NCBI RefSeq assembly: GCF_028890305.1 | Contig: NZ_JARBXM010000001.1 | Coordinates: 1,592,501 to 1,656,500, forward strand | Direction: 5' to 3' | Length of the DNA: 64,000 nt | From: Candidatus Methanosphaera massiliense | GTDB lineage: Archaea; Methanobacteriota; Methanobacteria; Methanobacteriales; Methanobacteriaceae | Shown here: positions 12,333-55,664 of the stretch, piece after piece | Layout of the letters: each line of letters starts with the position of its first letter | Position numbering within the stretch: position 1 is the first letter of the stretch | The notes under the pieces: model-generated | Database searches by the model: none | What the model was told of the DNA's origin: nothing | Seen by the model: the letters and a program-made list of their open reading frames with translations, nothing else | Program-made: the position numbers and the translations under genes

Positions 12333-12360
12333 TAGTATTTTACCAAATGTTTATACCTAA
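12333..12360. repeat. IS630 terminal inverted repeat, transposase 3' side
   Basis: Begins TAGTATTTTACCAAATG. The transposase stop codon (12340-12342) lies inside it. Pairs with 13676-13703 with three mismatches. Confidence 0.9.
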
Positions 12361-13676
12361 ATATTCATTAACCCAATTTGTGTAAAATGATGTTAAATCA
12401 ACTATTTTATAGAATTCACGTTCAAATATTTCTATTAATTTGTTTAAATTTTCATACATTGATTTATATATTTTAGATTTAATTTTACGCCATACATCTT
12501 CAATTGGATTTAAATCAGGGCAATATGGTTTTAAAAAGATTAAATTTATGTTCAATATTTCACAGGCTTTTTCAACAATTTTAGCATGATGTATTCTTGC
12601 GTTATCTAAAATAATATTTATTCTTTTTTCTTTTGAGTTTATTTCCATTATTTTTGGATTTGATAGGTTATTCAGTAATCTTAATCTTTTTTCATACCCT
12701 ATTTTTCTTGAATTGTTGTTGTCTTCTTTCCTGCAAATCTTTTGAATTTTTTCTATGGAAATTTGTTTGGAATTGTCATTATATAGTTCATCATTGATTT
12801 TATTTATCAAATCCATTTCATTTAGTGATTTAGAGGATAGATATTTTTTTATTTTTTCATCAGATAAGTTTTCATTGTTTATTGCATCTTTGATTAATTG
12901 TTTACCTAATCTATTAGTCATGTTTTCAATACGGTAATGGCATAAGGTAATTACAAAGTGAAATGCATTGTTTTTTGTATTTACCTCCATATATGAGTTG
13001 CAATTGATTCCTTGAAATCCAGTTACATTTATTCCAAATTTTACTGGATGTTTTGTTTGTATATTTTTTTCTCCAGGAGCATATAATATTCTTGTAACAT
13101 TTGGAACATTTTGACAAGATGTTTCATCTAAAAAAGCAAAATATTCTGTTTGTATGTCTGTTGTCTTTAGTTTTTTTTAAGATCTTCTTCAGGATTCTTA
13201 GGACGTGTGTTGTATTTAATGAATGGTTTTCCATAGTTTAAATTTAATTTTTGTCTTGTAATAACCCATACTTGCTTCTCACTATATGTTATACCATATT
13301 TTTCTTTAATTAAGTTTCGTACATCTTTTAAATTATATTTCTCTTCATTTCCAGTTATGATTTCATTCAATTCTTTTAATTGTTGATCAGTTAAATATGA
13401 TTTTCTTCCACAATTGGAATAATTTGAAAATAAACCATCAACGCCATTTTCATTATATTGTTTGACCCAACGTTCGCCTGTTTTTCTTGAAATATTAATG
13501 TTTTTTGAGGCTTTAGCAATACTTTCACCATTTGCAACCATGTTAATTAACAAAAGACGCCTATAAACAGTGTAATATTCCTTGTACTCTTTCAGCATGT
13601 CTGAAATTTCTGAAAGTTCTAAATGTTTTTCAATTTTATTATTAAATTTTTCCATGAATATACATTTATAATCCAT
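12340..13676 (-). CDS. IS630-family transposase, two frames joined by a -1 frameshift
   Basis: The first frame (13676-13167, 169 residues) has the helix-turn-helix region (ANGESIAKASKNINISRKT and ERWVKQYNENGVDGL). It ends at TAA just after a run of eight A at about 13170-13177. Reading one base back there opens a second frame that continues without a stop to 12340. That frame holds the DDE domain: FLDETSCQN, ILDNARIHHAK and LKPYCPDLNPIEDVWRKIK. The joined product is about 445 residues. The A-run is a plausible programmed -1 slip site, known in other IS families, but a simple one-base deletion would look the same. Confidence 0.87.
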
Positions 13677-13703
13677 TAGGTATAAACTTTTAGTAAAAAA
13701 CTA
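13676..13703. repeat. IS630 terminal inverted repeat, transposase 5' side
   Basis: Read on the minus strand it begins TAGTTTTTTACTAAAAG. Its first three bases supply the TAG that truncates the fdhB-like gene, and the transposase ATG overlaps its inner end. Confidence 0.9.
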
Positions 13704-14495
13704 TAATTGTTTTTTCTGTGTTTTCTTAGCCATCTTTATCATGATGTTTTCTACTTTTTTCCTGATTTTTATTTGTTTTTCAGATGCTTCTTTGGCTTCT
13801 ATGTATCCATTGTCTATTGCATTCTGTATTAGTTGTTCTCCTTTTGGAGTGTTGATTTCTACAAAGGTGTATCCTTTACTGGATCCCCAGTTTCCACATG
13901 CTACATCCGCTTTTCGTGGTATTTTTAATTCACATCTTTGACAGTTTTCTCTTCGACCATAACCTTCATCTTCTAGGTCATCTATTTTCACTGATTTTTC
14001 TGTTCCGTCTGCTAATTCTACAATAAATTTTCCTTTATTTATCTCCTCGGATACTACTTCTTCAGGATTAATATCATAGAATAATTTAATCATTTTTTCA
14101 GCTACTATAGGTTGTACTGTTCCCCCACAGTTTAGTCCTATCATATATACATTATCTCTATTTATTCCACATCTTTTGATGATTTCATCTATAGCCATTG
14201 CATCACAGGGTTTTGTTGTTACTGCTATTTTTTCATCTTTAAGATGTCTTGCAATTATATCTGAAATCATAGTTGGAGCACAGTGAAGTGAACCTGCTGT
14301 TTCTATTAATTCATCAGCATCAGTTGTGAATGTTGGTATACCATCATATACATCTTTTTCTTTTTTTATGTTTAATACGCCTTCAACAGTATTTGATTCT
14401 AATAAGAATTTTAGAAGAGATGTTACTGCTCCACCATTTTCTGCTTTTTCTAATATTTCAGGATTTGTTGCTTTAACCTGTAAGTATTTCTCCAT
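13701..14495 (-). pseudogene. fdhB/flpB-like gene, 5' fragment (FrhB_FdhB domains), truncated by the IS element
   Basis: The fragment encodes the FrhB/FdhB catalytic part: ENGGAVTSLLKFLLE, SLHCAPTMI, AVTTKPCDAMAID, IGLNCGGTVQP, GRRENCQRCELKIPR, ACGNWGSSKGYTFV. FdhB-type subunits oxidise or reduce F420 through FAD and iron-sulfur centres. The product stops at a TAG formed by the first bases of the IS and lacks the C-terminal ferredoxin domain. ATG at 14495 is preferred over the GTG at 14504 because GGGTGG lies 5-6 bases before it. The gene starts a few bases after the FdhA/FwdB-like gene. The truncated protein may be made but would lack its electron outlet. Confidence 0.88.
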
Positions 14496-14509
14496 TTTTA
14501 CCACCCTTA

Positions 14510-15562
14510 TTATAATGCATTTTCTAGTTCATCAAATACCATTCGTATTGTTTTTAATTCATTTGTATCATCTTGAATAGTATCTATGAATTCCTGAGTT
14601 TTTCCTTCATTATTAGTAAAGGAACCTTCTTGTTCATACCATGCACGTACTGGTATATTAACATCTGAATCCTGGAATAATTTCTTTGTAGTATTAAATG
14701 AAATAATTTTTTTATCTGCACCTATTTCTTTATCTACATATTCTGCAGGATTTTCATCAACTAGTATTAGTATATCAGAATTATTACATTTCTCTACCAG
14801 ATCATGTATTGTAGAAGGCGTTGTTTTTTCTAATACTGAAAAACTATTAGGATGATTTAGTACAGGTAATATTTTTATATTATTTTCTTTTACAAAATCT
14901 ACTAGTTCCTGATATTGTTTGTTTGAACTAACCTTGTTAACAACTATTATTGTGTTGTCGGTTAAGTCCTGTGATTTCACAGTATCCATAACTTCTGAGA
15001 ATGCATCAAGATTGATAAATTCATCACTGTTGTATGCAGTTAAATTTTTATGGTTGTTAATATTAATTGTGTAACATCCATTCTCTTTTGCATGTATTAT
15101 TCTACGTGCTATTAATGGATTGTTACGATATATATCTCCTATTGTAATTATCTTGTCTGCTTTTTCTACTTCTTCATAGGATGCTAATATATCTGAATCT
15201 ATCTTTGAGAAGTTATATTCATAGGTTATCAGATTGTATTTTTGATTATTTGTGAAAGATATTATTTTATCTAAATCCTCATTATTTAATCTTCCTGAAC
15301 AAATCACTGTTATTCTACTCTTGTCTGCTGAGTTTAGTAAATCTGTCACCTTGTTTAATATTGTCTCATAATCCTCAGATAATTCTTCTTTGTTGTTTTT
15401 GAAGAGTTCTATTGTATCTGTACAGTTGTTACAATTTCTTCCTTCGTTTATTTCGTGATTTTTATAGGCGTTTATTCCTACTATTGTATCATTTTTACTT
15501 ATGATATTTAACCCACAGCCTACACTACATGTGGGACAAATTGTATGTTCAATTTTTAACAT
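14510..15562 (-). CDS. Short FdhA/FwdB-like molybdopterin-oxidoreductase-related protein (FlpC type)
   Basis: 350 residues. The N-terminus has a 4Fe-4S motif, CPTCSVGCG, with a CNNC pair near residues 43-46, as in FdhA and FwdB. The middle resembles the nucleotide-cofactor domain (ITVICSGRLNN, KIITIGDIYRNNPLIARR), and the end PVRAWYEQEGSFTNNEGKTQ is the usual FdhA/FwdB closing motif. FdhA is about 680 residues and FwdB about 430; here no catalytic Cys/Sec region was seen. It heads the cluster with the fdhB-like and mvhD-like genes, matching the formate-dehydrogenase-like (flp) arrangement of Methanothermobacter. The actual reaction is unknown. Confidence 0.75.
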   Translation of the reverse strand: MLKIEHTICPTCSVGCGLNIISKNDTIVGINAYKNHEINEGRNCNNCTDTIELFKNNKEELSEDYETILNKVTDLLNSADKSRITVICSGRLNNEDLDKIISFTNNQKYNLITYEYNFSKIDSDILASYEEVEKADKIITIGDIYRNNPLIARRIIHAKENGCYTININNHKNLTAYNSDEFINLDAFSEVMDTVKSQDLTDNTIIVVNKVSSNKQYQELVDFVKENNIKILPVLNHPNSFSVLEKTTPSTIHDLVEKCNNSDILILVDENPAEYVDKEIGADKKIISFNTTKKLFQDSDVNIPVRAWYEQEGSFTNNEGKTQEFIDTIQDDTNELKTIRMVFDELENAL

Positions 15563-47482: not shown

Positions 47483-47615
47483 TACTTCCGATTGAATTAA
47501 AAAAAATGAAATCACTATATGAAAAAACAATTAAGAAGAAATATAGAAACGAAATAGAAAGCATGACCGTATATTATTAAATTAAATAAATTTACATTAA
47601 ATGGAGGATTTTACA

Positions 47616-48839
47616 GTGGTAGCAGAATCGTTACTAAATACAGGTGACACTGCCTGGATTCTAATGTCAACGGCATTAGTTATGATTATGACCTTACCGG
47701 GTCTAGCACTATTTTATGGAGGTATGAGCAAAAAGAAAAATGTTCTTAACACAATGTTCTTATCTCTAGTAGGATATGCAGTTGCATGTCTAATCTGGGT
47801 AATATATGGTTATCAATTTACATTTGGAGCAACAATTGGTGGATTCATAGGAGCACCAACGAACTTTTTCCTATCTGGAATCTCATTAGAAATGATTCAT
47901 CCAGATTCAACAATACCTGAATTATTATATGTTGTATTCCAAGCAACATTCGCAGCAATTACAGTTGCATTAATTTCAGGTGCAGTAGTAGGTAGAATGA
48001 AAGCAAAAGCATGGATTGTTTTTGTAGCATTATGGGTAACACTAGTATACGTCCCAATTGCCCACTGGGTATGGGGTGGAGGTTGGTTATACCAACTAGG
48101 AGCTTTAGACTTCGCAGGAGGTGCAGTAGTACACCTTAACTCAGGTATATCAGCACTCGCATTAATATTAGTACTTGGACCAAGAAAAGACAGACGTCTA
48201 TTACCTCACCATCTCGGTTATTCCGTAATAGGTGCAGCACTATTATGGTTTGGATGGTTTGGATTCAACGCTGGATCAGCTCTCGGAGCAAACGGATTAG
48301 CAGCAAACGCATTCATTACAACAAACACTGCAACAGCTACAGCAATGATTGTATGGATCCTAGTAGATATCTGGAAAACTGGAAAACCAACAATACTCGG
48401 TGCAATAACTGGTGCAGTAGCAGGATTAGTAGCAATCACACCTGCAGCAGGTTTCGTAGATGTACCAGCTTCAATCGTAATAGGAGCTACAACAGTATTT
48501 GTATCATACTTCGCAATATCATACTTAAAACCAAAACTCGGTTACGACGATGCATTAGACGCATTCGGTGTACACGGTATGTCCGGTACATGGGGAGCAA
48601 TCTTAACTGGTGTATTCGCAGCACCAGCTATTAACGGAGCAACAGGATTATTATACGGTAACCCTAGTCAATTAGGTATACAAATAATAAGTATTGTTGC
48701 AGTAGCAGTATATGCATTTATAGTAACATACATAATTGCTCAAGTACTCGATAAAACCATGGGTATAAGAGTAGATGAACAAACTGAAATCGAAGGTTTA
48801 GATGCAAACGAACACGAAGAATTAGGTTACAGAATATAA
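47616..48839 (+). CDS. amt: Ammonium transporter Amt
   Basis: 407 residues, about 11 membrane segments. The GTG at 47616 ([11 protein letters not shown]) is preferred because GGAGG (47603-47607) is 8 bases upstream; the upstream ATG at 47601 is itself part of that site. Twin pore histidines lie in GAVVHLNSG and [11 protein letters not shown]. It conducts ammonium into the cell. glnK follows 13 bases after and its product blocks the pore when nitrogen is plentiful. Confidence 0.96.
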
Positions 48840-48852
48840 GGATTGTGATAGA

Positions 48853-49191
48853 ATGAAAGAAATTACCGCAATTATTAGAAGTGAACGATTAGATGCAGTA
48901 AAAACTGCATTAGAAAAAGTAGGTTGTAAAGGTATCACAATCACAGAAGTAAAAGGTAGAGGTGAACAACTAGGTATTGAAGAAAATTACAGAGGTACCA
49001 GTTACAGAATAGATCTCTTACCTAAAGTAAAAGTCACATCAGTCGTATCTGATGATGCAGTAGAAACAGTAGCAAATGCAATCACCGAAGCAGCTAGAAC
49101 AGGAAACATCGGTGATGGTAAAATATTTGTTAAAAACGTGGAAAATGTAATCAGAATAAGAACTGGAGAAAGGGGGGACGATGCAGTGTAA
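48853..49191 (+). CDS. glnK: P-II nitrogen regulator GlnK, linked to amt
   Basis: 112 residues. P-II family marks: KEITAIIRSERLDAVKTALE, GITITEVKGRGEQLG, the T-loop NYRGTSYRIDLLPKVK and GDGKIFVKNVENVIRIRTGE. It binds ATP/ADP and 2-oxoglutarate and controls Amt by plugging it. The amt-glnK pair under an NrpR-type operator is the standard nitrogen-scarcity unit. Its last codons form part of the terminator hairpin. Confidence 0.95.
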   Translation: MKEITAIIRSERLDAVKTALEKVGCKGITITEVKGRGEQLGIEENYRGTSYRIDLLPKVKVTSVVSDDAVETVANAITEAARTGNIGDGKIFVKNVENVIRIRTGERGDDAV

Positions 49192-49714: not shown

Positions 49715-50395
49715 TTATTTTTTAGGAATACCTGTTATTCTTATTCCACCAAATTGTGATTTATATTTTATGTTTAAACCTATTAATAATGGTGTGATCT
49801 TCTCAATCATTCTAGCTTTTTCTAGTTTACCACAATCTATACAGTCGATTCCAGGTATTTTTTCAATTATTTCTTTTACAACTTGTTTAGCTTCATTATC
49901 ATTACCAGCTAATAGACAATCACAGTCAATTGGTTCTGGTATATTAGCTAATAAGGAATTACTTACATTGTTAAATGCAGCTACAACTTTAACATCTGTC
50001 TTTTTAAGTATTTTAGCTGTTCTTTCTGCAGCTGATCCTTCCATTAAATCTATAAATCTTGCTGGTGATCCACCAATAGCTGTTTCTAATGGTACTGTTG
50101 CATCTACTAATATTTTATCTCCAACATAATCTTTTATTGATTGTAAGGTTGGTTTTTGTGCTGCCAATGGTACTGTTAATATTAGTAAATCTCCAGCTTG
50201 TGCGGCATCTTCATTAGACATTCCTTCCATTTTAATGTCATCATAATCTTTTAATAATTCTAGAGATTCTTCTACTTTAGTAAGAGCTTTTTCTTCTTTT
50301 CTTGATCCTATAATTATATCTTCACCAGCAATTGCAAGTCTTTTTCCAATATTTAATCCTTGTGAACCGGTTCCACCAATTATTGCTATTCTCAT
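49715..50395 (-). CDS. npdG: F420H2:NADP oxidoreductase
   Basis: 226 residues. The NADP loop is IAIIGGTGSQGLNIGKRL with the 2'-phosphate site GSRKEEKA, and F420 contact regions lie in LTVPLAAQKPTL and VVAAFNNVSNSLLANI. It moves hydride between F420H2 and NADP, providing NADPH for synthesis. GAGGT precedes the ATG. It lies beside, but 200 bases apart from, the glutamate synthase operon and is transcribed in the same direction. Confidence 0.94.
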   Translation of the reverse strand: MRIAIIGGTGSQGLNIGKRLAIAGEDIIIGSRKEEKALTKVEESLELLKDYDDIKMEGMSNEDAAQAGDLLILTVPLAAQKPTLQSIKDYVGDKILVDATVPLETAIGGSPARFIDLMEGSAAERTAKILKKTDVKVVAAFNNVSNSLLANIPEPIDCDCLLAGNDNEAKQVVKEIIEKIPGIDCIDCGKLEKARMIEKITPLLIGLNIKYKSQFGGIRITGIPKK

Positions 50396-50594: not shown

Positions 50595-50936
50595 TTAAAT
50601 TGCATCAATACCTTTTTCACCAGTACGAATACGAATAACTTCCTCTACATTAGAAATAAAGATTTTACCATCACCCATTTTACCAGTGAAAGCACTATTC
50701 CTTATTGTTTCAGCAATGTTATCTACTTCATCATCAGTTGTTACTATTTCTAATTTAATTTTTGGAATTAAATCAACTTTGTATTCAGTACCCCTATATT
50801 TCTCAATTATACCTAATTGTTCTCCTCTACCTTTAACCTCTGAAACTGTTAAACCATTACATCCAATTTTTTCAAGATTATCTTTAACAACTTCTAATTT
50901 TTCCTGTCTAATAATTGCTTCTATTTTTTTAACCAT
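50595..50936 (-). CDS. glnK: P-II nitrogen regulator, second copy, at the end of the glutamate synthase operon
   Basis: 113 residues from ATG at 50936, which has GAGGTG 6 bases upstream; a GTG at 50945 is in frame but lies within that site. T-loop KYRGTEYKVDLIPKIK, GDGKIFISNVEEVIRIRTGE. It is 11 bases after the glutamate synthase gene and shares about two thirds of its residues with the amt-linked P-II. Its place suggests a role in sensing or controlling the synthase, not Amt. Interesting because most P-II genes pair with amt. Confidence 0.92.
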   Translation of the reverse strand: MVKKIEAIIRQEKLEVVKDNLEKIGCNGLTVSEVKGRGEQLGIIEKYRGTEYKVDLIPKIKLEIVTTDDEVDNIAETIRNSAFTGKMGDGKIFISNVEEVIRIRTGEKGIDAI

Positions 50937-50947
50937 ACTACTCACCT

Positions 50948-52426
50948 CTATCTAACTAATGGTACATCTGTTATTTCGGAAGCTTCCATTGTTAATGCTA
51001 TTAAATCAGCAAATTCTAATTTTTGTAGATCGGTGTGACCAGCTTGTTGTGCTAACATTTCAGCTTCTTTAGTCATAGCATTAATGTAATTAGCAACAGC
51101 ATTTCCTCCACGTACAGGATCTAATCTTCTTCTTAATACCCTATCCTGTGTAGCTATTCCTTTAGGACATTTACCTAGACTACATCCACGACATACTTTA
51201 CATCCTATTGCTACTAAAGCTGCAGTACCTATATATGTAGCATCTGCACCTAATGCTATAGCTTTAGCTACATCTGCACCTGATCTTATACCACCTGCTG
51301 CAACAAGACTTACTTCAGATCTTAAATTAATATCTTTAAGAGCAATGTCTGCTTTTCTAATTGCTTCTATTGTAGGTATTCCTGCATGTTCTGTAATGAT
51401 TTCTGGTGCTGCACCTGTTCCACCTTGCATACCATCGATTACTATAATATCTGCTCCTGCTTTTGCAGCAATTTTAACATCTTGTTCTACTCTACCAGAA
51501 GTAAATTTAACTATGATAGGTATTTTCCAGTCAGTAATTTCACGTAATTGATCAATTTTCATTCCTAAATCTTCTGGTCCTACAATATCCATGTGTCTAG
51601 CTGGACTTAATGCGTCAGAACCTTCTGGAATATTTCTGATTTTAGCTACTTCAGCTGTTACTTTTTTACCTAGTAAGTGTCCTCCCATACCAGCTTTTGC
51701 ACCTTGACCAATTTTTATTTCTACTGCTTCAGCATTGTTAAGGTAGTTTGCAGATACTCCAAATCTACCAGATGCATATTGTGCTATTAATTTATCAGCA
51801 AAATGACGTTCTTCTGGTAACATTCCACCTTCACCTGTATTGGTGATTGTACCTACAATACTTGAACCTCTAGCTATTGCAATTTTTGCTTCTTTACTAA
51901 TTGCTCCAAATGACATAGCACCAATCATTATAGGAGTGTTTATTTTTATAGGATTTTCTGCAAAACGATCTCCTAATACTACTTCTGTTTTACATGGTTC
52001 CCTGTATGAATCTATTGGTGGTCTTGAAACCTGTGCTGGTAATATACTTAAATCATCAAATGATGGTAATTTACGTGTTGCTCCACATCCCCTGATTTTA
52101 TCTTTACCAGTTTGTGTTTTACGTTTTATTTCTAACATTGTCTGACTTGACCATATTCCCCTACCTTCATCAGGAAGTGGAGTTACATATATAGCTTGAG
52201 TTGGACACATTTCTTCACATATTTTACATCCAACACAGTTTTCCTGATGAACTGGTTGAGGTTCATCATTAATTACCTCATATACACCATGAGGACAATT
52301 AGAATAACAACTATAACAATTTTTACATAATGATTTTTTAGGATTGTCACATAAATACCAACAACAACCCGGCCTATCATTATTTTGTTTACAAATCTCA
52401 GATCTTCTATTTACATTAAAAGACAT
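50948..52426 (-). CDS. gltB: Glutamate synthase FMN/iron-sulfur subunit (archaeal type)
   Basis: 492 residues. The N-terminus (1-95) is cysteine-rich with a bacterial-type ferredoxin domain: CCWYLC, CKNCYSCYSNCPHGVYEV and CVGCKICEEMCPTQAIYV. The remainder is the FMN domain: IMIGAMSFGAISKEAK, GTITNTGEGGMLPEE, IGQGAKAGMGGHLLG, DGMQGGTGAAPEI and the 3Fe-4S set CKVCRGCSLGKCPKGIATQ. It forms glutamate from 2-oxoglutarate and ammonia delivered by the amidotransferase. The start overlaps the stop of the permuted FrhB-like gene. Confidence 0.94.
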   Translation of the reverse strand: MSFNVNRRSEICKQNNDRPGCCWYLCDNPKKSLCKNCYSCYSNCPHGVYEVINDEPQPVHQENCVGCKICEEMCPTQAIYVTPLPDEGRGIWSSQTMLEIKRKTQTGKDKIRGCGATRKLPSFDDLSILPAQVSRPPIDSYREPCKTEVVLGDRFAENPIKINTPIMIGAMSFGAISKEAKIAIARGSSIVGTITNTGEGGMLPEERHFADKLIAQYASGRFGVSANYLNNAEAVEIKIGQGAKAGMGGHLLGKKVTAEVAKIRNIPEGSDALSPARHMDIVGPEDLGMKIDQLREITDWKIPIIVKFTSGRVEQDVKIAAKAGADIIVIDGMQGGTGAAPEIITEHAGIPTIEAIRKADIALKDINLRSEVSLVAAGGIRSGADVAKAIALGADATYIGTAALVAIGCKVCRGCSLGKCPKGIATQDRVLRRRLDPVRGGNAVANYINAMTKEAEMLAQQAGHTDLQKLEFADLIALTMEASEITDVPLVR

Positions 52427-53499
52427 TATATCACATCCTCAGTATAATCTTTTAATGGTTTAAACACAGGACAAACAGCATATTTTGTTCCTGATGCTTT
52501 TAAAATTTCATCTATATCATCAGTTATTTTAGCTACTGGTTTCCATGGTGAATCCTCTTTTGTATCAACTACAAGTGCTCCAGTAACTATTTGATATGTT
52601 ATAAGGTAGTCTAGTATTGAAGTTACTACTCCACCATCCTGACCATGATAATTCTTTGCTGATCTTACTGTTACTATTTTCTGGTAGTCACCAAGATTAT
52701 TAGAATTATCATTTCTTAAATTTGTTGGAATGAATGTTCTTGGACATACAGCAAAACATGCATGACAATCTTCTGGACATTTTCCTCTTTTTCTTGGTTT
52801 TGAATCAGCTATTGTGATTATGTTTTCTGGACAAATGTATTCACATGCACCACATAATACACATGCCCCAACATCAATTACATTACCTTTTAGGTCAGCA
52901 AAGTTAGCTGATGATATTTCTCTAAATATTGTTTTATCAGATATTTCTCTCTGATATAATACTGGTCTTGCTTTGAATTCTCTGGTATCTATATTTTCAA
53001 AGTTTCTTTTTATTTTATTTCCAGCAATTTTATTTAATAGATTTAATTGTGTTGATGTTAGATCTTTTGCTTCAATATATCCGTGTTCTATTGCATCATT
53101 TATTACTTTTAGTCCTGCATCTGTTCTAATAATAACAGTTGACCATCCTTTATCAGAACCTATTGATCCTACAGAGATATCTGATGTTTCAGATGTTAAT
53201 TCTACACAAATATTACAATTTTTTCTTACAACCTTCTTTGCTACAGATAAAGGAATTTTCATTTTTTGTCCATTTTTTAGGAACATGAATGCGTATCCTT
53301 TTTCTATTCTGAATTTCTCAATTTCTTCCATTGTTAAATCATATTCTAATAATAATGCTTGGAAATATGAGTAGGAAAAGTTTTCCATACAAAATAGTCC
53401 TATTTTAAATTCTATTGGAGATTCTGTGAAATGTTGGATTTTAGATGCTGCCATTATTTCACATGGTGTTCCTACTAATGCTACTGTTTTATTTACCAT
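52426..53499 (-). CDS. Circularly permuted FrhB/FdhB-like F420-type iron-sulfur protein
   Basis: 357 residues. Residues 1-166 match the C-terminal part of FrhB (KTVALVGTPCEIMAASK, KIGLFCMEN, KNCNIC, ISVGSIGSDKGWSTVIIRTD). Residues 205-256 are a two-cluster ferredoxin region (C213, C216, C219, C223; C241, C245, C248, C252). Residues 272-357 match the N-terminal part of FrhB (YQKIVTVRS, GQDGGVVTSILDYL, SPWKPVAKI, KASGTKYAVCPVFKPLKD). Normal FrhB has these in the opposite order. It lies 2 bases from the GXGXG subunit and overlaps gltB, so it is most likely the electron-input subunit, perhaps using F420H2. Confidence 0.9.
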   Translation of the reverse strand: MVNKTVALVGTPCEIMAASKIQHFTESPIEFKIGLFCMENFSYSYFQALLLEYDLTMEEIEKFRIEKGYAFMFLKNGQKMKIPLSVAKKVVRKNCNICVELTSETSDISVGSIGSDKGWSTVIIRTDAGLKVINDAIEHGYIEAKDLTSTQLNLLNKIAGNKIKRNFENIDTREFKARPVLYQREISDKTIFREISSANFADLKGNVIDVGACVLCGACEYICPENIITIADSKPRKRGKCPEDCHACFAVCPRTFIPTNLRNDNSNNLGDYQKIVTVRSAKNYHGQDGGVVTSILDYLITYQIVTGALVVDTKEDSPWKPVAKITDDIDEILKASGTKYAVCPVFKPLKDYTEDVI

Positions 53500-54180: not shown

Positions 54181-55098
54181 TTATATTGTGTATGATCTTG
54201 TTTCTCCAGGAGCTATTTGTTCTACATGATCTGTTTCAAGTACATCCTGTAATGCCATTTCCTCTGATGCTATTGCAAATACATCATCATTTTCTGCCAT
54301 TACACCTGGTCTTAATCCTAATTTATCTTTTGCTATTCCTATACCATTTGGAGTTCCTACTAGTAAAGAGAATGGTCCGTCTAAATCTTCTACTGCATTT
54401 TCTAATGCTTCTTCTAGTTTGTATCCTTCAGATAATTTATCAGCCATGTAGTGTACTACACACTCTGTATCATTATCTGTTTCGAAATGATGTCCTTTTC
54501 TTTCTAGTACATCTCTTATCTTCCAATAGTTAGTAATTTGTCCATTATGTACTACTGTTATATCTGGTATAATATAACTTTGATATGGGTGTGCATGATA
54601 TCTGTCTACACCACTTTCTGTTGCAAATCTGGTATGTCCTATACCATGTGTTCCTTTTCTTGATGGTAAATCAAATCTTTTAGATATATCTTCTACTAAT
54701 CCCACATCTTTTATCATTTCAAATGAATGTGCACCATTTATTACTTGAACATCTTCAAATTTATCTAAATTACTGATTAATGGTTTTAACATATTGTAGT
54801 TATCAAGTTCTATTTCGCATCTGTAAATATTATAATCATCTACAGAGTGAAATAGTTCTTCACTTATTATTGGACTTGACTGAGTTAAATATGTCTTTAG
54901 ATTTTCAAGCACTTTTGAATTATCCTTAACTTCTATATTTAATTGATAATGATTTTCGGGGAGATTTAATCCTCCGTAAATTGCGAAGCCTGCAGAATCA
55001 GGACCTCTGTGTTGTAGGGAATTTAACATCGCTGCTAGTGATTCTCCAACGTTATGGGTTTTTTTATCTTTATAAATTACACCTGCTATTCCACACAT
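54181..55098 (-). CDS. Class II glutamine amidotransferase subunit of glutamate synthase
   Basis: 305 residues. It begins MCGIAGVIYKDKKTH with the nucleophile Cys2, then HRGPDSAGFAIYGG, GIGHTRFATES, TVVHNGQITNYW and ETDNDTECVVHYM. It releases ammonia from glutamine. Size and motifs fit the split archaeal GltB amidotransferase. Its start overlaps the pdxT stop by 13 bases, so the operon is tightly coupled. Confidence 0.93.
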   Translation of the reverse strand: MCGIAGVIYKDKKTHNVGESLAAMLNSLQHRGPDSAGFAIYGGLNLPENHYQLNIEVKDNSKVLENLKTYLTQSSPIISEELFHSVDDYNIYRCEIELDNYNMLKPLISNLDKFEDVQVINGAHSFEMIKDVGLVEDISKRFDLPSRKGTHGIGHTRFATESGVDRYHAHPYQSYIIPDITVVHNGQITNYWKIRDVLERKGHHFETDNDTECVVHYMADKLSEGYKLEEALENAVEDLDGPFSLLVGTPNGIGIAKDKLGLRPGVMAENDDVFAIASEEMALQDVLETDHVEQIAPGETRSYTI

Positions 55099-55664
55099 CT
55101 CAGCACCTCCTCTATAAATAACCTGTGAACTAATGTATCTTCTGTTAGTTCAGGGTGGAAAGCTATTCCAATATATTGATTTTGTTTAACTGCAATAATT
55201 TTATCATCATATTTACTTAATACTTCTACATCATCGCCAATATTATTCACATATGGTGCTCTGATAAATATGCCATGATATTTTTTGTCAGTAAATTCGA
55301 TTTCAGTTTCAAATGATAATCTTTGTCTTCCAAAACCATTTCTTTCTACAGTTGCATCTATTAAATGAAGTAGTGGCTGTTCTTTATCTGTTTTATCACA
55401 CAGTAATACTAATCCTGCACATGTTCCTAGTATTGGTATTCCTGAAGTTTGAAGATATTTCATTAATCCCGTTTTCTCTAAGTGTAAACCAATAGTTGAA
55501 CTTTCACCACCAGAGATTATTAGACCATCACAATCCTGAATATCTTCTAATACATTTACTAGTTTTATTGAGCCATCAATCCCCATTTCTTTCAATGCTT
55601 TTTCTGTTATTATTTGATGTTCTTCAACGTCACCTTGTAAATCTAGAATTCCTATTTTTATCAT
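55086..55664 (-). CDS. pdxT: Pyridoxal 5'-phosphate synthase glutaminase subunit PdxT
   Basis: 192 residues of the class I glutaminase family. Motifs: IGILDLQGDVEEH, GLIISGGESSTIG, PILGTCAGLVLL (Cys nucleophile), GFGRQRLSFETEI and IAFHPELTEDTLVHRLF (His, Glu). It feeds ammonia to PdxS for PLP synthesis; pdxS is not in the window. It heads the glutamate synthase operon, linking two glutamine-using systems. The ATG has a GGTGAT-type site. Confidence 0.95.
   Translation of the reverse strand: MIKIGILDLQGDVEEHQIITEKALKEMGIDGSIKLVNVLEDIQDCDGLIISGGESSTIGLHLEKTGLMKYLQTSGIPILGTCAGLVLLCDKTDKEQPLLHLIDATVERNGFGRQRLSFETEIEFTDKKYHGIFIRAPYVNNIGDDVEVLSKYDDKIIAVKQNQYIGIAFHPELTEDTLVHRLFIEEVLRCVE

Follow-up and report, generated by a model that had tools for sequence, protein, structure and literature searches.

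Our analysis of a 64,000-nucleotide stretch of the genome of Candidatus Methanosphaera massiliense (the window) revealed an FrhB/FdhB-family protein whose domain order, FrhB C-part, two-cluster ferredoxin, FrhB N-part (C-Fd-N), is a circular permutation of the usual Fd-N-C arrangement, and whose gene lies within a run of glutamate synthase genes (Table 1). Across 151 related genomes, the permuted gene tracks a high-scoring glutamate synthase, even when it lies outside the operon. Taking this together with the conservation of the cluster cysteines and of most FAD/F420-site residues, we propose that the gene product is probably the subunit through which electrons enter a glutamate synthase of four parts that depends on F420H2.

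Table 1. Features of the glutamate synthase run and of the permuted protein, in window coordinates.
Feature	Position	Strand	Evidence
PdxT glutaminase (vitamin B6), upstream end of run	55086..55664	-	Pfam; 13-base overlap with amidotransferase gene
Class II glutamine amidotransferase subunit, 305 aa, starts MCGIAG	54181..55098	-	PF13537, PF13522
GXGXG beta-helix subunit of glutamate synthase, 220 aa	53502..54164	-	PF01493, E 3.2e-28
Permuted FrhB/FdhB-family protein, 357 aa, proposed F420H2-oxidising glutamate synthase subunit	52426..53499	-	Pfam, PDB-sequence matches, residue map
FrhB_FdhB_C domain, residues 4-148	53056..53490	-	Pfam, residue map
Two-cluster ferredoxin region, residues 207-256; C213, 216, 219, 223, 241, 245, 248, 252	52732..52881	-	Pfam, alignment
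FrhB_FdhB_N domain, residues 277-350; QDGG 287-290 and K339-Y340 of FAD site	52450..52671	-	Pfam, residue map
Glutamate synthase FMN-domain subunit, N-terminal two-cluster ferredoxin, 492 aa	50948..52426	-	PF01645, E 5.7e-129
GlnK/P-II regulator, 2 bases after synthase gene	50595..50945	-	Profile match
npdG, NADPH-dependent F420 reductase	49715..50395	-	TIGR01915, 246.4 bits vs cut-off 149.8

The preliminary description of this DNA, made from the sequence alone, had claimed the same order, with boundaries at residues 1-166, 205-256 and 272-357; the order is borne out by Pfam and by phmmer against PDB sequences, and the boundaries agree with Pfam to about 18 residues. PF04432 (FrhB_FdhB_C) matches residues 4-148 (E 2.4e-44, profile 2-148 of 150, 151.3 bits against a cut-off of 23.3), Fer4 models match residues 207-256, and the C-terminal part, described beforehand as the FrhB N-terminal domain, is indeed PF04422 (FrhB_FdhB_N) at residues 277-350 (E 6.7e-19, profile 3-78 of 78, 68.2 bits against a cut-off of 22). 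The N-before-C order of the FrhB family is thus not found in this ORF, which begins with ATG. The PDB sequence matches are F420-handling subunits; in the best of them, chain 8riu_B, ORF residues 199-346 align to 8-164 and residues 4-170 to 176-346, so that by sequence alignment both FrhB halves are present and swapped relative to this chain. Against the frhB equivalog model TIGR03289 the ORF scores 193.8 bits, far below the cut-off of 331.5, and its closest named record, identical at 100% over the protein, is from the uncultured Methanobacteriaceae archaeon RUG12825. The cut lies between the helix that follows the GTKY motif and the strand bearing GTPC. These motifs are 24-27 residues apart in normal-order proteins (39 of 51 rows, those in which both were found), and the permuted ORF has 17 residues after Tyr340 and 12 before Cys13, 29 together.

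The swapped halves retain the cluster cysteines of FrhB and most residues of its FAD/F420 site. In a map against a Methanothermobacter-type FrhB (L245, with cysteines at 104, 134, 148, 192 and 195), the four [4Fe4S] ligands C104, 134, 192 and 195, as given in the available text of PMC3591093, correspond to C13, 37, 95 and 98 of the permuted ORF and are all kept. QDGG 24-27 falls on 287-290, K75-Y76 on K339-Y340, S209 on S112, and the first lysine of IGKGK, K165, on K67. Among residues of the FAD/F420 site, K167, the second lysine of that motif, is replaced by Y69, G164 by E66 and V210 by I113, the others being kept. None of the 12 cluster-binding cysteines (three clusters) varies across 41 aligned rows, window included, hand-picked from 80 named loci (one genome per species), and in two alignments the K-Y of the FAD loop, the QDG that begins the QDGG helix and the four FrhB cluster cysteines are likewise invariant.

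Could the layout be an artefact? The window genome holds three FrhB_N and three FrhB_C matches at E <= 0.001, each pair within one open frame, and no stray N or C half was found in it at that threshold. A colinear, full or near-full-length permuted match occurs in 43 of 60 genomes, the window's own included, and one such match in 123 of 151 genomes. Because the layout is conserved over these genomes and its 12 cluster cysteines are invariant, we reject assembly error and chance. The same data bear on the possibility that the ORF represents out-of-phase halves of two tandem normal FrhB genes. In the phylum of G057, nine look-alikes among the matches listed cover both halves only by reading through 1-4 stop codons; of five look-alike loci examined, four contain a pair of adjacent genes of normal order, and the fifth, which lies at a contig start, contains one. 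The window's ORF is single and stop-free, its genome has no stray halves, and the layout is kept in 123 of 151 genomes; for the window genome we therefore reject this reading and give it next to no credence, in agreement with the initial claim that no out-of-phase tandem duplicate is involved, the N and C halves being paired in single frames genome-wide. At six loci of the G057 phylum (L190, L191, L193, L194, L209 and L210), the adjoining halves of neighbouring normal FrhBs mimic the permuted protein across stops, and among the matches listed for the 227 genomes of that phylum (best 8 candidates per genome) no stop-free full-length match was present. Such neighbouring normal-order genes are a possible architectural precursor.

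On the minus strand, the run reads pdxT, amidotransferase, GXGXG, permuted FrhB, synthase and glnK, with gaps of -13, 16, 2, -1 and 2 bases, and Pfam places the amidotransferase, GXGXG and FMN synthase parts all beside the F420-type subunit. The synthase subunit has a C-x5-C-x4-C motif at residues 409-420, which we take to be its 3Fe-4S site. The npdG gene follows 199 bases downstream of the run, on the same strand. An ammonium transporter gene and a second glnK lie at 47601-49191 on the plus strand, opposite to the run. Elsewhere in the window, the region 13701-15562 (minus strand) encodes a normal-order FrhB-like protein of 267 aa without ferredoxin, which has a very long tree branch, next to a short formate-dehydrogenase/NuoG-like ORF of 350 aa; beside the FrhB-like gene, two adjoining ORFs at 12340-13676 (minus strand) resemble, by eye, an IS630-type transposase in two pieces.

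Is the subunit tied to the synthase beyond this one operon? We read the presence of the permuted FrhB and of Glu_synthase (a match below 1e-120) by hand in the 151 related genomes. The permuted gene is full or near-full-length in 123, fragmented in three (at the ends of contigs or across more than one contig), and absent among the matches listed in 25, an absence that is not firm because only the best 13 first-look candidates per genome were scored. Both genes are present in 122 genomes and neither in 21, with four permuted-only and four synthase-only genomes (Fisher p 5e-18, kinship among the genomes ignored); the 1e-120 threshold identifies the partner only roughly, other Glu_synthase paralogues, some of them equally strong, being present in several genomes. 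The window genome itself has one more strong Glu_synthase match, in a 415-residue frame, and two weak ones. Among the 25 genomes that lack the permuted gene, eight reach a completeness of at least 90%. Seven of these eight, from four genera, lack both genes (G004; G482, G490; G500, G505, G561; G026), though each still has a Glu_synthase paralogue that scores more weakly, with a best E between 1e-93 and 1e-101 and a frame 465-486 residues long.

Half of the eight mismatches can be put down to contig ends. In G533 a contig end carries the tail of a permuted gene, and in G544 one carries the first 73 synthase residues; the synthase begins 17 bases from a contig start in G495, and in G485 the permuted gene reaches a contig end. 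The remaining permuted-only genomes are G530 and G572 (80% and 63% complete), and the remaining synthase-only genomes G022 (99% complete, 300 contigs), which keeps the operon without the permuted FrhB, and G534 (87% complete); these last two may mean that the subunit can be dispensed with or that parts of the assemblies are missing. Relocation and decay are seen as well. The pdxT-amidotransferase-GXGXG-synthase run is intact in G478 and G501 without the permuted gene, which stands alone elsewhere, and in G479 both genes are broken, the permuted gene lying in pieces (L254, G479:C59) and the synthase containing stops (G479:C1:17913-19381). Around the 80 named loci, same-strand partners within 4.5 kb comprise GXGXG at 53, synthase at 53 and amidotransferase at 52. 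All three are missing nearby from 26 of the 80, seven of which are flanked by 4.5 kb or more on either side (L104, L109, L114, L117, L118, L121 and L123), the rest having shorter flanks.

How would electrons reach the synthase? In the proposed path, F420H2 would deliver a hydride to FAD in the permuted FrhB, from which electrons would pass through the FrhB [4Fe4S] cluster to the two-cluster ferredoxin, and on to the synthase subunit, through whose ferredoxin domain and 3Fe-4S cluster they would reach its FMN. There, 2-oxoglutarate and the ammonia released by the amidotransferase subunit would yield glutamate. The permutation would keep the FrhB fold, the chain being opened in the loop ahead of the GTPC strand and the ferredoxin placed between the original C- and N-termini. 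Our literature search found no assay, cofactor measurement or structure of the permuted protein. The preliminary description had suggested either an F420H2-driven synthase or a distinct electron entry. The former stands as the best reading of the residue set, the operon and the co-occurrence over 151 genomes, with F420H2 as the predicted donor; the latter gains nothing from the permutation alone, because FrhBs permuted at nearly the same loop adjoin quite different enzymes.

It is conceivable that the synthase is driven by ferredoxin and that the permuted protein acts mainly as an iron-sulfur adaptor or docking subunit, the cellular donor being something other than F420H2. The synthase subunit has a two-cluster ferredoxin domain of its own, which could accept electrons from free ferredoxin, the operon is kept in G022 without the permuted gene, and FrhB K167 is not retained; an adaptor would, however, not need the invariant K-Y of the FAD loop, the QDG or the four FrhB cluster cysteines, and we consider this arrangement unlikely. 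Alternatively, NADPH may be the real donor, with NpdG reducing F420 and F420H2 feeding the permuted subunit, such that F420 would act as a local shuttle. The position of npdG just downstream of the run would suit such a shuttle, as would a similar ORF, recognised by eye, a few kilobases from the synthase operon in G478 (L248), but npdG lies outside the tight run, and the window genome encodes, in addition, an FrhB of normal order that lacks ferredoxin (L041), with F420 perhaps reducible with H2. We regard NADPH as the true source as quite improbable; this scheme is compatible with an F420H2-dependent synthase rather than exclusive of it.

Permuted FrhBs are not confined to glutamate synthase operons. 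A model of permuted proteins (A2), which includes rows from G049 and G054 that match by construction, gave full-length matches in 19 of the 23 genomes of the G049 phylum, which we would guess to be Hydrothermarchaeota, with two or three matches in eight of the 19. In the phylum of G054, only G054 itself, of 392 genomes (best 5 candidates per genome), has a full-length match; in the others the best E is 2.1e-58 or weaker, and the matches listed are half-length, as are all A2 matches in the five genomes of the G056 phylum. In the G049 phylum and G054, permuted FrhBs (L031-L033, L195-L214) are found directly upstream of a 2-oxoacid oxidoreductase gamma or Mtd gene, or downstream of a Nap-like molybdoenzyme. 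A survey of neighbours at 42 loci covered 40 with a permuted gene, repeats included: 11 adjoin POR/KOR gamma, 12 Mtd and three lie downstream of a Nap-like molybdoenzyme, with none of these at 14. Counting each gene once leaves 27 (seven POR/KOR gamma, nine Mtd, three Nap-like and eight with none, some contigs being cut short), and two of the last eight (L204 and L205) have an overlapping gamma gene in another comparison. In the examples run against Pfam, the neighbours were confirmed as POR, Mtd and molybdoenzyme. The G054 copy lies within a POR operon and groups inside the G049-phylum rows in the second of the two trees described below, which suggests that it was acquired by transfer.

Do these proteins share one origin? 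From 226 ORFs that carry the two domains together (175 permuted, 51 normal), 75 were hand-picked with near copies left out, and two further near copies were dropped, giving a first tree of 73 rows. It requires four changes of order, and the permuted proteins form one clade in 0 of 200 bootstrap trees. For a second tree, seven normal rows and one permuted row (L199) were removed, six of the eight having been flagged as long in the first, and the ferredoxin part was added; here 44 permuted and 21 normal rows are split on one branch (87/83, unstarred, 84% of bootstrap trees). Because the two trees disagree and the removal of rows favoured one origin, a single origin is allowed by the trees rather than demonstrated; the cut region shared across permuted FrhBs favours it. 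In most permuted chains the two ends together amount to about a single junction, and we reject the idea of a relic of duplication; some chains start or end longer, notably the Mtd-linked proteins of about 487 residues, in which short similar end stretches seen by eye are too weak to use. We put at roughly even chances the view that permuted FrhBs constitute one family of single origin, a portable F420-to-iron-sulfur adaptor cut at one loop, which occurs across Methanobacteriota, in another archaeal phylum and, probably through transfer, in a single genome of yet another, its partners being glutamate synthase, 2-oxoacid oxidoreductase, Mtd and a Nap-like molybdoenzyme.

What is new relative to earlier work? 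For the Methanothermobacter protein, the matter is largely known, an F420-dependent synthase having been proposed by 2011-2012 and a swapped alignment printed in 2013. In its available text, PMC3087415 includes for Methanothermobacter an F420-dependent glutamate synthase (MTBMA_c06440/MTH193) whose proof by purification was still to come, and it refers to a paper of 1991 on how Methanosarcina barkeri assimilates ammonia. PMC3448663 names FGltS(I) and FGltS(II), the F420 subunit of the latter being an FdhB homologue, with no mention of permutation in the portion available, and the legend to Fig. 9 of PMC3591093 (eLife 2013) states the swapped alignment for the Methanothermobacter 'GS' ADL58239. 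The available part of PMC9012536 describes ANME FrhB paralogues clustered with pyruvate ferredoxin oxidoreductase and with glutamate synthase, permutation going unmentioned there; the text of PMC8498797 contains neither glutamate synthase, permutation nor FrhB. Our search of the literature, which was partial and covered few subscription journals, found nothing to the point that names the permutation beyond the eLife legend, and no description of permuted FrhBs in other operons. Added here are the co-occurrence, including relocation and joint loss or decay, and the wider set of permuted FrhBs.

The electron supply to methanogen glutamate synthase is apparently still unproven, and the co-occurrence, together with subunits that are relocated yet retained, turns the old proposal into one that can be tested directly. 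Should the wider permuted family prove real, direct electron exchange may take place in archaea between F420 and 2-oxoacid oxidoreductases, as well as other enzymes, and the family would provide a natural example of a permuted redox protein; if it is a single family, several enzymes thought to use ferredoxin would be F420-linked.

The putative synthase of Methanothermobacter, as seen at L246 (presumably M. thermautotrophicus delta H), has the same pdxT-GATase-GXGXG-permuted FrhB-synthase order as the window, and its permuted protein is a 47%-identical orthologue with no important difference from ours. The swapped alignment agrees with that of the eLife legend, and this synthase (presumably the MTBMA_c06440/MTH193 of PMC3087415 and the ADL58239 of PMC3591093) is probably the FGltS(II) of PMC3448663. 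FGltS(I) was likewise proposed to be F420-dependent, but its F420 subunit, as described in the available part of PMC3448663, is a homologue of the N-terminal half of Fsr, an FrhB with two N-terminal clusters, i.e., of normal order. FpoF/FqoF and the N-terminal half of Fsr share the two-cluster ferredoxin and the FrhB core with the window's protein, in the order Fd-N-C rather than C-Fd-N. FrhB itself shares both Pfam domains, the cluster cysteines and most FAD/F420-site residues, whereas the window's protein is permuted, with an inserted ferredoxin. The window's synthase domain matches the bacterial NADPH- and ferredoxin-dependent glutamate synthases (PDB 2vdc, 7mfm and 1llw). Unlike those enzymes, whose matched single chains are 1472-1520 residues long, the window's is split into separate genes and accompanied by an F420-type input subunit.
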